Source of the DNA: a virus
Virus record (IMG/VR): IMGVR_UViG_3300044715_000768
Coordinates: 1 to 64,000 of that record
DNA length: 64,000 nucleotides
Reading direction: 5' to 3' (one strand)
A program made the translations under genes and the position numbers. A model generated the notes under the pieces. That model was not told the origin of the DNA, ran no database searches, and worked only from the letters and a program-made list of their open reading frames with translations. Every line of letters begins with the position of its first letter. The stretch's first letter is position 1. Shown here in pieces: positions 44,194-58,122 of this stretch.

Positions 44194-44235
44194 AACCCCT
44201 GGGGCGAAAATTTGTTCGCCTCGGGGGTTGTTTTA
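44194..44235 (+). terminator. Rho-independent terminator
   Basis: Arms AACCCCTGGGGCGAA (44194-44208) and TTCGCCTCGGGGGTT (ending 44229) form a 15-base near-perfect stem with the loop AATTTG, followed by GTTTTATTT. It ends the histone-like transcript. Confidence 0.85.
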
Positions 44236-44499: not shown

Positions 44500-44873
44500 T
44501 TTACCCAGAAAAAGAAATGTATAGCATTCTGGAGCCGCAACCCCCTGAAGTTAGGCTCACAGCGGAGCCACTTCTTGCTCTTTTCAAGATTGAGGGCTCA
44601 GATAACGGCATTTCATCACTGGCCATGCGCTTGGGAACTGAACGCAACTCCCTGTACAGGTGGATTGAGAACGGGATTGACCTTAGGAACGCCGAACGCA
44701 TGGCTGAAAAAATCAACACGCACCCTTCTTTGATTTGGGGTCCTGAATACCACATCGCAACCTATATGGAGCAAAATCGTAAAACAATAATGGCGCGTAG
44801 AAAACGTGAAAAACTCGTTATCCGTCGTTCTATTGCCAGAAAGAAAAAGAGAGATGAAGCAGTCACACAATAG
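44496..44873 (+). CDS. Helix-turn-helix DNA-binding protein
   Basis: 125 residues overlapping the HicA-like gene. Residues about 35-75 form a HTH (GISSLAMRLGTERNSLYRWI, ENGIDLRNAERMAEKINTHP), and the C-terminus is a long basic helix (RKREKLVIRRSIARKKKRDE). It might regulate the cluster or pair functionally with the HicA-like product. An immunity repressor is not indicated since no integrase is present in the window. Confidence 0.65.
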   Translation: MIYPEKEMYSILEPQPPEVRLTAEPLLALFKIEGSDNGISSLAMRLGTERNSLYRWIENGIDLRNAERMAEKINTHPSLIWGPEYHIATYMEQNRKTIMARRKREKLVIRRSIARKKKRDEAVTQ

Positions 44874-45123
44874 AAAAAAAATTTTCTACAGCCCTGAACA
44901 AACAGCCTTAACCCTAAACTTTATTGTTGATTTTACTAAAGAACGTGGTTATCCGCCGTCCGTTAGAGAAGTAGGCGAGAAAATTGGCGTTAGTTCGTCG
45001 TCAACTATCCACAAATTCATACGCCAATGCGTTGATGAAGGATACATAGACATTGACGCACGTATTCCTCGTTCAATAAGAGTATCTAAGATAGGCAAAA
45101 AGTACTTATCTTCGGCTCAATAA
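44854..45123 (+). CDS. LexA-type winged-helix DNA-binding protein
   Basis: 89 residues from ATG 44854, overlapping the previous gene. The wHTH matches the LexA N-terminal domain: EQTALTLNFIVDFTKERGYP, PSVREVGEKIGVSSSSTIHK, CVDEGYIDIDARIPRSIRVS. The C-terminal autoproteolytic domain of LexA is absent, so it would bind operator DNA without SOS cleavage. It could act as a phage regulator mimicking or replacing the host repressor. Confidence 0.8.
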   Translation: MKQSHNRKKIFYSPEQTALTLNFIVDFTKERGYPPSVREVGEKIGVSSSSTIHKFIRQCVDEGYIDIDARIPRSIRVSKIGKKYLSSAQ

Positions 45124-45867: not shown

Positions 45868-46467
45868 CTATTCCATCCAGTTCTTTTTAATCCATCTAGC
45901 GATGAATTCAGCACGCAAACGAGAACCCGTAGAACCGTAGTGCACCTTATCCGGATTCAACAAATGCTGTCTGGTTTGGATAAATCTATCCCAGCCAATG
46001 ACGTGCATATTGATATTCCTACCAGCCTTCTTTTCAAGCATAGAGTTCCATATAGTCGCTGACTTATTGTTTCCCTTGCCCCAGCCCTTCCATACGGAAA
46101 CCCAAGCAACCTTCCTGCCCTTTAGTTCACCCATAATCGCAGACACCCTGTTACCGATGGTTTCATACTTGTACGCAGGTGAATCGTTCGTACCGAGCGC
46201 AATTACCCAACAAGCGTCTTTATCAACGCGCTTTTTGTAGTACCTAACCGCTTCCAAACCCGTATGAGGGTCGTTCGGCATCTTCGTAAATACTGACCTG
46301 CTCCCAGCGGCTGAAATTATCGCGTTAGGGAAACCGATTTTTTTATATTCAGCGACCTGAAACTGTTTTGAGTGCACCGTTAAAGAATCTCCGATGTGGA
46401 CCACGTTTGAACATGTCCCAGGAACATTCATTAGTAGGGAGAACAAAAGACTATACATATCTATCAA
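45868..46467 (-). CDS. SGNH/GDSL-family hydrolase
   Basis: 199 residues. The four SGNH blocks are present: VVHIGDSLTVHS with the Ser nucleophile, a Gly region around IISAAGSRSV, ALGTNDSPA with the Asn, and DKVHYGSTGSRLRAEF with the Asp/His pair. The N-terminus is hydrophobic (MYSLLFSLLMNVPGTC) and could be a short signal or lipobox. Such enzymes deacylate sugars, lipids or cell-wall polymers; a virion or lysis role at the host surface is plausible. It overlaps the next gene by 17 bases. Confidence 0.8.
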   Translation of the reverse strand: MIDMYSLLFSLLMNVPGTCSNVVHIGDSLTVHSKQFQVAEYKKIGFPNAIISAAGSRSVFTKMPNDPHTGLEAVRYYKKRVDKDACWVIALGTNDSPAYKYETIGNRVSAIMGELKGRKVAWVSVWKGWGKGNNKSATIWNSMLEKKAGRNINMHVIGWDRFIQTRQHLLNPDKVHYGSTGSRLRAEFIARWIKKNWME

Positions 46468-46945
46468 GTACCTCTTCTAATAGGATTGGCTTGTAACCAG
46501 TTTGCTCAACGCTTACGCACTGATACCAGGGGTCTGGAAGGGATTCAGCGTGCAAATGTCCGTGAATATTGCCTCTATAGCGATATTTCTGGTGGTCAGA
46601 GACTGGAATGTGAGTTAAAACAAACTTGTTGTACGAAAAAGTGCCCATGATGTCATAAAAATAGGGGGTATAAACGCTTAAAGGAAGTCTATCGTGATTG
46701 CCCTTTATTAATAATTTCCGGCCATGTAATAACCGCATCGTTTTGACACCTTGCTTATCTATGGCAACATCACCAAGGTGGATAACCTCGTCCTTAGGGC
46801 CTACCGTCTCGTTCCACAACTGAATCATCTCTTCGTCCATCTCTGAGGCACTATCCCACGGACGTAACTTGTCGCCGTGCTTGGCTGAGAACTCGCAAAT
46901 GCGTTGGTGTCCCCAATGCGTGTCGGCTGTAACGAAAATTGACAT
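46451..46945 (-). CDS. Calcineurin-like metallophosphoesterase
   Basis: 164 residues with a GGAGAT ribosome site. Metal-binding motifs: FVTADTHWGHQR, VIHLGDVAIDKQG, LLIKGNHDRLP, FVLTHIPVSD, RGNIHGHLHAES. This is the small phage-type metallophosphoesterase; members act on phosphodiesters or nucleotides and in phages sometimes on 2',3'-cyclic ends. Co-transcribed with the SGNH hydrolase. The 477-base region upstream of its start holds origin-like elements. Confidence 0.88.
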   Translation of the reverse strand: MSIFVTADTHWGHQRICEFSAKHGDKLRPWDSASEMDEEMIQLWNETVGPKDEVIHLGDVAIDKQGVKTMRLLHGRKLLIKGNHDRLPLSVYTPYFYDIMGTFSYNKFVLTHIPVSDHQKYRYRGNIHGHLHAESLPDPWYQCVSVEQTGYKPILLEEVLDRYV

Positions 46946-47114
46946 ATCTCCATCGTACCGGGAAGAAGTAGGAACTCAAACGTTTTGTATGGATTTATCC
47001 AATAGTGGATTAGGCTTCAAAATTTATCGTGTGCCCCCCCACGCGCGCCCGACCCGTTCAGAAAGAAGCCCCGAGAATCGCCTCACGGGGTCCGAAAACT
47101 ACCACTTATAGTAG

Positions 47115-47168
47115 TTATCCACACCCTGTGAATACCACTCTCTGTGGTTGTCCACACCCTGTGGATAA
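47115..47168. promoter_or_regulatory. DnaA-box cluster in two inverted dyads
   Basis: TTATCCACA (perfect DnaA box) at 47115-47123 faces TGTGAATA at 47128-47135 (one mismatch from a box). TTGTCCACA at 47148-47156, a common actinobacterial box, faces TGTGGATAA at 47160-47168 (a perfect box in reverse). Each dyad is two boxes around CCC or CCCC. Established: DnaA binds TTWTNCACA boxes and such clusters mark origins. Confidence 0.7.
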
Positions 47169-47177
47169 AGGTCAAAG

Positions 47178-47236
47178 CGAACACATGTACGACGAACACC
47201 TGTACGCACGAACACATGTACGACGAACACATGTAC
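47178..47236. repeat. Four iterons, CGAACACATGTAC
   Basis: Four 13-base units at 47178, 47193, 47209 and 47224, with 15-16 base period: three read CGAACACATGTAC and the second has CCTGTAC. Each holds a palindromic ACATGT core (ACCTGT in the second). They lie between the DnaA boxes and the promoter, the usual place of iterons at replicon origins or of repressor operators. Confidence 0.75.
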
Positions 47237-47365
47237 CCATCACATAAATACTTGACAAAACATTACGAAAGTGCTAGTCAATACACATCACATGACGCCA
47301 TACCTGATTGTAGATAATGCCTCATGACCCACACAAAAGTACGCCTCACAAGCACGCTTTTACAC
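47234..47365. repeat. Three TAC(A/C)CATCACAT direct repeats
   Basis: TACCCATCACATAA at 47234, TACACATCACATGA at 47282 and TACACATCACATAA at 47351. The 12-base core is conserved with spacings of about 48 and 69 bases, flanking the promoter. They could be further regulator sites or part of the origin. No spacer regularity of a CRISPR. Confidence 0.55.
47252..47280 (+). promoter_or_regulatory. Sigma70-type promoter for the giant protein gene
   Basis: TTGACA at 47252-47257, a 17-base spacer, then TAGTCA at 47275-47280. The -35 is perfect, the -10 is weak. Iterons end 15 bases upstream, so a protein bound to them could control it. The distance to the ATG at 47441 leaves a 150-base leader. Confidence 0.55.
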
Positions 47366-55800: not shown

Positions 55801-56392
55801 CTATCTCTGCGTCCTGTATTGGTGCTTGTCCGAGGATACCAGCAACCATGTCTGGTGGAAGTACACCCGACATACCCATGATTTCCAATAACTTACGAGC
55901 CTCTGTCTCTGGGTCAAAGGCGTCAATAGCAGCAGGGCGACCCCCTTCGCCAGCAAGAGTTGCTTTCACCGACTCCGAGCCCCGTACATCCATCTGAACA
56001 TTAATGTTGGTGGCTTCCATGCCAAGAAGTTTAGTTCTTCTGTCCATGATTGAGAGAACTTGTTGTATCGCTTTGAGGTCTGGTTCTACTGCCACCTCGG
56101 TGCCGTCGTCCATTCTTACCTTTCGGTGCTGAGTAAGTGGCCAGATTGCTGCTTGTAGGTTGTCTAGGCGTTCCAGTTCCATGCGTAACACCTCTGGGTA
56201 CGCCATGAGTGCTTCTCTGTTCAGTTTCTCTAACTGACGCTGCACAGCCCTGTGTACAGAAGCAGACGTAAGGTCAAACCTTCTGGCAATTTCAGATACT
56301 GCTACGCCAGCCTGTCTCATCTTGAAAATACGTAAGTCTCGCTCTGCGATGAACTCTTTCGTCATCACTTTATTACTGCGCTCTTGACTCAT
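55790..56392 (-). CDS. Candidate terminase small subunit
   Basis: 200 residues coupled by ATGA to the primase gene. The N-terminal 55 residues form a helix-turn-helix (RIFKMRQAGVAVSEIARRFD, LTSASVHRAVQRQLEKLNRE), followed by helices (LRMELERLDNLQAAIWPL) and IMDRRTKLLGMEATN, a line frequent in small terminase proteins. The C-terminus is Gly/Pro-rich with LLEIMGMSGVLPPDMVAGIL. TerS recognises the packaging site. TerL is far away, so the assignment is tentative; a plain HTH regulator is the alternative. Confidence 0.6.
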   Translation of the reverse strand: MSQERSNKVMTKEFIAERDLRIFKMRQAGVAVSEIARRFDLTSASVHRAVQRQLEKLNREALMAYPEVLRMELERLDNLQAAIWPLTQHRKVRMDDGTEVAVEPDLKAIQQVLSIMDRRTKLLGMEATNINVQMDVRGSESVKATLAGEGGRPAAIDAFDPETEARKLLEIMGMSGVLPPDMVAGILGQAPIQDAEIVDE

Positions 56393-58122
56393 TTTGTTAC
56401 CTTAGCGTACTCCACTACTTCAAACGGGAAAAGCCTACCCCTCTTTATCTTGGTAGGCCATGGCCTGTCGTCACGAGCACCTCGGAAATGCTTGACATCA
56501 TAAGTGTACGCCATACCAGACGAAATGTCAGGAGTGAGCGCAATACCAAACTCCGGCCAACGGGACCACACAGCAGAACCAAACGGGCGCAACTGACGAT
56601 TTGTCATGCTTTCTCCCAAAGGTGCGTGATGCTCCAACCAAAGAGCACACTGATACGAATCTCTGATGTAGTCAAGATACTTGGCAACCTCAACGGCTAC
56701 TGCTTCTGCCGTGCGACCACCTGGGTCTACGAATGCCTTGTACAGAGGACCCATGATGAGCAACTCTGGCTTCGTGTCCTCAATGGCACGCTCCAACACT
56801 TCTCTATCTTCTGGCTTCATCAAATCAAAACCCGATGGCTTGACGAGAAGTTCTGCTGTTGGCGACTTCGTGTAGCCCCGAGCAAACGCAGCATTGTAGA
56901 TTTCACGAGAAGTACGCCTAATGATGCGCTCTGGGTTTTCCAAGTCCACAGTCAATGTACGCACCTGTCGCATGCGTTGATAAGTGAATGGGTGTACACC
57001 ACAACCTGAAAGTATTGCTACCTGTCTCGCAAGCATTGTCTTGCCAACACCTTCGGCAGCAACAACAATAACTCGTTCTGTGCGCTCAATCAAATCGTCA
57101 ATGACCCAATCGTAAGTGTCATCACTGCTCTCGGAAACGAACTCACTCCACGATACTAGTCTGCCAAAATCTCTAGGCTTGTCTCTGCCTGCCGACATCG
57201 CAATGCCTTGCGCTTTGATGAGCAACTGATGTGGCGACAAGTCGTTACGAAGCATTAGTTGTTCAAGTTTGTTCCTCGCCTCAATAAATACGTCAGGGTT
57301 AGAGACAACTTCAACCATCGGAGCGACTTCAATAGTCGGGGCAGTTGTTACGGGTGTGTCTTCTCCAAGCAACAGGAGTTCATCTATGTCTCCACCGAGA
57401 GACAAGAAGTCAGTTATGTCCTTGTATTTCGGTGTGTGCCAAACTCTTGCTTCGCAACCAGCCTTTGACAACTCGCTACATACCGTCTTTGCGTGAGCCA
57501 TCCCTGGTTCGTCATTGTCGGCAATAATCTCAACTTCTGCGCCAGCGAGAACTGCTGTGTGTATCGGCAACCACTTACCAGCACCTCCTGGCATTGTCGT
57601 TGCGATAATCCCCATGTCCATGAGAGTGTCGGCATCTTTTTCACCCTCAACAACCCAAATAGGGAAACCCTCTTTTACGGCATTGATGAGTGCTGGAAGA
57701 TTGTAAAGAACTTTTGGTGTGTCGCCGAGGGAGTATTCCCATCCACCTCTACCATCGGGCTTACGTTGTCGGAATGTTTTCTTTCCATCACCGTCAATGT
57801 AACGGAGTTTCTGGAATAGAAGTTCTCCGTCTTTATCAGTGTAGTTGTAAGTTTTAGTAAGTTCAAGTTTTTCTTTGTTACGTTTTTGTGGTGGGAACAA
57901 AGATGCTTGCGTCAAACCAATTGATTCGCAAATTTCCTTACTACTGCACGGCGAGCCCCGATGACACGAAACCAGAATGTTTCCAGTGTTGCTATCTTCA
58001 GAGATTGACAGAGATGGATTATCGTCATCATTACGACACGGGCAACGTGCTTCCCATCCGTTAGAAGTTTCGCTTACTCCTTTTAGACGAGAAAGAAACT
58101 CGTCTGTATGCGAAGAGGACAT
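56389..58122 (-). CDS. Primase-helicase (Toprim plus RecA-like domain)
   Basis: 577 residues. Order: an N-terminal zinc/CHC2-like region (WEARCPCRNDDDNPSLSISE; ILVSCHRGSPC); a Toprim domain (WVVEGEKDADTLMDMGIIAT, PGGAGKWLPIH, EVEIIADNDEPGMAHA) with its Glu and DxD-type acids; then a RecA/AAA_25 ATPase with Walker A VVAAEGVGKTMLARQ, VRTLTVDLENP, and Walker B LLIMGPLYKAF. It synthesises primers and unwinds DNA, like RepA-type primase-helicases of actinophages. TAATG coupling to whiB upstream and ATGA to terS downstream. Confidence 0.85.
   Translation of the reverse strand: MSSSHTDEFLSRLKGVSETSNGWEARCPCRNDDDNPSLSISEDSNTGNILVSCHRGSPCSSKEICESIGLTQASLFPPQKRNKEKLELTKTYNYTDKDGELLFQKLRYIDGDGKKTFRQRKPDGRGGWEYSLGDTPKVLYNLPALINAVKEGFPIWVVEGEKDADTLMDMGIIATTMPGGAGKWLPIHTAVLAGAEVEIIADNDEPGMAHAKTVCSELSKAGCEARVWHTPKYKDITDFLSLGGDIDELLLLGEDTPVTTAPTIEVAPMVEVVSNPDVFIEARNKLEQLMLRNDLSPHQLLIKAQGIAMSAGRDKPRDFGRLVSWSEFVSESSDDTYDWVIDDLIERTERVIVVAAEGVGKTMLARQVAILSGCGVHPFTYQRMRQVRTLTVDLENPERIIRRTSREIYNAAFARGYTKSPTAELLVKPSGFDLMKPEDREVLERAIEDTKPELLIMGPLYKAFVDPGGRTAEAVAVEVAKYLDYIRDSYQCALWLEHHAPLGESMTNRQLRPFGSAVWSRWPEFGIALTPDISSGMAYTYDVKHFRGARDDRPWPTKIKRGRLFPFEVVEYAKVTK

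Follow-up and report, generated by a model that had tools for sequence, protein, structure and literature searches.

The use of host DnaA by mobile replicons is known from P1 and other plasmids (PMC4980987) and from lambda, where DnaA stimulates transcription (PMC3985674). P1 oriR and other iteron plasmid origins carry host DnaA boxes with adjacent direct repeats (PMC4980987), and lambda ori is served by an O initiator and a helicase loader with host DnaA acting near promoters (PMC3985674). The DnaA boxes of Streptomyces oriC span up to ~950 bp, and TTGTCCACA is the high-affinity DnaA box of Streptomyces and Mycobacterium (PMC4285127). Streptomyces LexA boxes follow the motif tCGAAC-N4-GNNCGa, and the validated dnaE2-2 site of S. 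venezuelae, TCGAACGTCCGTAC, has a GTAC right half (PMC9380542).

The locus described here was found in the window, the 64,000-nucleotide stretch of DNA that was analysed, which comprises positions 1-64,000 of IMGVR_UViG_3300044715_000768 and covers all but 92 of the 64,092 bases of that record. It lies in a 477-bp gap flanked by a phosphoesterase gene and a divergently transcribed giant gene (Table 1). The box sequences are the same as those of oriC from Streptomyces and Kitasatospora, and a 21-bp dyad is identical to one located beside dnaA, whereas the phage site has about 3-4 boxes in 54 bp rather than many over hundreds of bp, and divergent phage promoters in place of an adjoining dnaA or dnaN. 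As in P1 oriR, DnaA boxes of the host type and adjacent direct repeats are present on a mobile replicon, but no Rep gene stands beside the repeats, which fit LexA operators and vary in number among relatives. The phage shares with lambda an O-like initiator, a helicase loader and DnaA boxes near promoters; however, the O-like protein appears to lack the N-terminal DNA-binding part, its gene contains no iterons, and some 42-44 kb separate the DnaA cluster from the O-like and loader genes, a distance that was counted against an origin. Compared with Streptomyces LexA boxes, the SOS-type sites of the phage are predicted operators arranged as four in tandem at 15-16 bp, with a first base other than t. 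New in this large actinophage is the joining of a compact, oriC-identical dyad to a tandem array of putative SOS-type operators, together with the conservation of the DnaA cluster in a relative of about 70-75% identity.

By its sequence, the window is part of a phage genome that extends beyond it. Identity with a contig of 118,470 bp (G1) was 88-98% over most of the length and 80% in one stretch. A more distant contig of 132,392 bp (G9) was 70-75% identical in nucleotide sequence over most aligned stretches with synteny kept, and its terminal repeat of 227 bp with 1 mismatch indicates that the map closes at about 132,165 bp. Synteny was also kept in contigs L008-L011, in which the N-terminus of the giant protein is 65-66% identical. 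The site itself was aligned between the window and the close relatives G1, L005, L008 and L010, with G9 as the more distant relative. The gene set of the phage includes WhiB, ribonucleotide reductase, a LexA-domain protein, a TOPRIM-AAA_25 protein, terminase and portal. The presence of WhiB, the type of DnaA box and the terminase, for which the nearest relatives are those of Gordonia and Brevibacterium phages, point to an actinobacterial host. No named phage with the same region or giant gene was found.

Table 1. Features in and around the divergent gap, with positions in the window.
Feature	Position	Strand	Remarks
LexA DNA-binding-domain-only protein	44806..45123	+	PF01726, E=9e-12; PDB LexA matches; true start probably 44854
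Phosphoesterase gene, phrog_547	46451..46945	-	divergent from giant gene
DnaA dyad 1, TTATCCACA-ccc-TGTGAATAC	47115..47135	.	left box 47115-47123 (+) perfect; right arm 47127-47135 a weak box, two mismatches
DnaA dyad 2, TTGTCCACA-ccc-TGTGGATAA	47148..47168	.	two perfect facing boxes, 3 bp apart: TTGTCCACA 47148-47156 (+) and TTATCCACA 47160-47168 (-)
SOS-type site 1 CGAACACATGTACG	47178..47191	+	fits CGAAC-N4-GNNCG (PMC9380542)
SOS-type site 2 CGAACACCTGTACG	47193..47206	+	
SOS-type site 3 CGAACACATGTACG	47209..47222	+	
SOS-type site 4 CGAACACATGTACC	47224..47237	+	last base departs from motif
Candidate promoter TTGACA-N17-TAGTCA	47252..47280	+	TTGACA 47252-47257; spacer 17 bp; TAGTCA 47275-47280; -10 non-canonical
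Giant gene, about 2400 aa	47423..54625 (start also given 47444)	+	directly downstream of gap
TOPRIM-AAA_25 replication protein	56389..58122	-	phage gene

A conserved cluster of DnaA boxes

The original prediction placed two inverted DnaA dyads in the gap, and both were found at those positions, dyad 1 with a weak right arm. Three perfect boxes lie within 54 bp across the two dyads. The cluster is real and beyond chance: the 64 kb hold 5 perfect TTRTCCACA boxes against 1.3 expected from Markov-1 simulations, none of the 60 simulations produced even two perfect boxes within 60 bp, and the chance of three within 60 bp was estimated at about 1e-6. Dyad 2 is identical at 21/21 positions in G1, L008 and L010 and at 20/21 in L005. 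Dyad 1 shows no change in G1, L005 and L008 and is degraded in L010, the site of which keeps only two perfect boxes, a finding counted against an origin. The block of SOS-type sites is 0.68 identical and the promoter block 0.53 in L008 and L010, whereas dyad 2 is unchanged. The syntenic site of G9 has six DnaA boxes in 68 bp with starts 11-12 bp apart; this is the sole DnaA-box cluster in G9, for which 0.2 pairs are expected per 132 kb. Conservation in the alignment together with the content of G9 indicates that the DnaA cluster is stable while the 13-mer repeats described below come and go. The conserved core consists of the DnaA dyads, and the relatives keep the cluster at the same place.

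A search of the genome collection recovered the exact 21-mer of dyad 2 from 30 stretches, of which 28 are actinobacterial. The dnaA gene lies alongside in 17 actinobacterial genomes, placing the dyad at oriC, and about ten occurrences are isolated dyads. A search for a DnaA gene (Bac_DnaA) gave no match in G0, G1 and G9 with working controls. Since no phage DnaA gene was found, host DnaA is the expected ligand of the dyads. The proposal that the boxes suit an actinobacterial DnaA and that host DnaA is recruited has held up, the oriC-identical dyad, the conservation and the lack of a detected phage DnaA, polymerase or DnaB making recruitment of the actinobacterial host protein a well supported prediction.

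The sequence TAGTAG directly 5' of the box at 47115 was considered as DnaA-trios and rejected, as there is no GC spacer and the motif is absent in G9; the polarity also appears wrong against the layout in B. subtilis. A GC-rich conserved stretch, CCCCCCACGCGCGCCC, and a CCCCG...CGGGG hairpin lie 5' of the DnaA boxes at 46990-47100 of the window, and G9 has a similar stretch, CCCCCCACGC, as does L017, a contig that was retrieved solely by way of the phosphoesterase. An Rfam search of the gap, GC-rich stretch and hairpin included, gave no match to an RNA element. The giant gene has orthologs of 3212 aa in G1 and 3112 aa in G9; its product has a match to DUF3626, and the middle and C-terminal modules vary among orthologs.

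SOS-type sites and candidate promoter adjoining the dyads

The four repeats that had been reported next to the dyads are present with spacings of 15/16/15 bp, the 13-mer CGAACACATGTAC beginning sites 1, 3 and 4 and CGAACACCTGTAC beginning site 2. The 13-mer consensus is CGAACAC[A/C]TGTAC and the extended form, CGAACANNTGTACG, fits the LexA motif. Four copies of CGAACANNTGTAC were seen against 0.0 expected in Markov-1 simulations. Sites 1-3 match CGAAC-N4-GNNCG in full and site 4 is one base off, and the right half is GTAC as in the dnaE2-2 site. Copies of the 13-mer number four in the window and G1, two in L008-L011 and none in G9, so that the repeats are not conserved together with the DnaA cluster as an iteron origin requires. 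The sequences initially taken for iterons are therefore better read as putative tandem LexA or SOS-type operators.

A LexA-like protein was one of several binders first suggested for the repeats, and the motif fits an actinobacterial LexA operator. The phage LexA-domain protein, a DNA-binding domain without the peptidase part and with an ortholog in G9, is a candidate binder of the SOS-type sites. Since G9 has the gene without the sites, the pairing of protein and sites is not proven. An SOS-like box at 44205 (CGAAAATTTGTTCG), identical in G9, was considered as a LexA autoregulatory site and rejected, as it makes up the loop end of a hairpin terminator.

The letters of the proposed TTGACA-17-TAGTCA promoter are in place, but they do not match a sigma-70 consensus. 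The T at position 6 is missing from TAGTCA, a sigma-70 scan gave no promoter at 47252-47280, and TTGACA is absent in L008 and L010 and kept in the distant G9 (TTGACA-N17-TAAGAG). The promoter is the weakest of the sequence features originally described.

A possible replication origin or transcription control region

The site is best read as a conserved, putative host-DnaA-binding locus. Sequence alone does not settle whether it is an origin or a DnaA-sensing switch, and it is probably one of them. A host-DnaA-dependent replication origin of the phage is the likeliest use and was given a probability of roughly 0.45. The oriC-identical dyad, the conservation, the lack of a detected phage DnaA, polymerase or DnaB, and the truncated O-like protein argue for recruitment of host DnaA, perhaps to an origin. 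Searches with PolA, PolIII-alpha, PolB and DnaB_C gave no match in G0, G1 and G9, with the controls working. The replication set of the phage comprises SSB, an O-like protein and a helicase loader (phrog_2289). The O-like protein of 147 aa, encoded next to the helicase-loader gene, aligns with phrog_16167 over positions 178-267 of 315 only, and a named relative, replication protein O, has about 344 aa, the region in common being on its C-terminal side. These comparisons suggest an initiator with no evident counterpart of the usual N-terminal DNA-binding part of longer relatives. The AlphaFold model of the O-like protein, of low confidence (pLDDT 64), has residues 1-34 disordered followed by helices and lends weak support. 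An origin inside the O-like gene, of the Lambda O/SPP1 G38P type, was considered and rejected, as neither G1 nor G9 has a direct-repeat array in its O-like/loader region.

In the proposed mechanism, host DnaA would assemble on the dyads in the divergent gap, and the O-like protein together with the loader would recruit the host's helicase and polymerase III, since neither a DNA polymerase nor DnaB was detected in the phage. The four SOS-type sites would constitute a separate regulatory module adjoining the dyads, acting as operators for the phage LexA-domain protein and/or host LexA to control the giant-gene promoter. GC skew, originally recommended as a check of the origin, and codon-3 skew showed no independent switch at the site, the extremes coinciding with gene-orientation switches. 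Since skew follows transcription, the skew test has little power here. No strong unwinding element was found inside the DnaA cluster; the weakest 60 bp duplex is 150-320 bp from the cluster and at about the 97th percentile only.

The origin first predicted is plausible but unproven. Early promoters of this lineage are marked by DnaA boxes as well. An early-promoter element, aGGTTGTttTTACCccTTACTACCgATAgagTG...ATG, occurs in 15 leaderless-looking copies at about 85.3-99.7 kb of G1 (L041), and also in L050 and L051. DnaA boxes lie upstream of 5 of the 15 G1 elements in a fixed register of -33 and -45 from the core, and for this reason DnaA may act as a transcription factor here. By that reading, host DnaA and LexA-type repressors would exert compound control over both divergent promoters while replication starts elsewhere, and the phage would sense replication state and DNA damage. 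Such control is possible, though on balance improbable. The location in a divergent promoter gap, the SOS-type sites adjoining a -35-like TTGACA and the LexA DNA-binding-domain protein of the phage are consistent with it, as is the fixed register in G1. Nonetheless, the dyads are facing and about 84 bp from the -35, whereas the boxes of the early cassettes are mostly tandem and near it; G9 has six boxes at the site and none at early promoters; and the dyads stay while the promoter and SOS-type sites change among relatives.

A locus for DnaA titration or DnaA state (datA- or DARS-like), which would soak up host DnaA and restrain host initiation, is unlikely: the boxes are of high affinity and several further pairs are present in G1, but relatives of the window have few boxes per genome (2-3 at the site in L010/L008), and the strict place beside divergent promoters would not be needed. 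An injection-stop signal resembling those of T5-like phages, which transfer their DNA in two steps and whose stop signals are described with repeats, inverted repeats and DnaA boxes (PMC13250531), is very improbable in view of the circular map of G9, even though repeats and dyads occur together at the site.

The origin reading can be extended to a ~130-kb tailed phage, without a detected polymerase or helicase, that starts at a compact oriC mimic via host DnaA and an O-type initiator without its own DNA-binding domain, with tandem SOS operators coupling the adjacent giant gene to DNA damage, and with a set of early promoters likewise driven by host DnaA; that all these parts hold together is doubtful.

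DnaA dyads in other phages

Direct recruitment of host DnaA was initially described as not common in tailed phages, a statement weakened by the finding of DnaA dyads of this kind in >100 IMG/VR stretches, where most lie between genes and clustering is frequent. Among 82 metagenomic-phage dyads examined, 62 were intergenic and 53 belonged to clusters with three or more boxes. DnaA-box clusters adjoin terminase small subunit genes (phrog_51) in the separate phage contigs L103, L105, L114, L143, L152, L091 and others. The locus provides a concrete case in which a large tailed phage of uncultivated actinobacteria would borrow host DnaA. As an origin, it would show how a large phage lacking a polymerase starts replication; as a promoter switch, it would be a case of a phage co-opting DnaA to regulate transcription. 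In both cases the annotation of the many DnaA-dyad clusters of metagenomic phages would benefit.

Other gene products of the relatives were judged by eye. That of G9 110045-111562, absent from the G1 listing, looks like a flavin-dependent tryptophan halogenase, and those of G1 112006-112629 and G9 125643-126257 look like a proteasome beta-type (NTN-hydrolase) protein.
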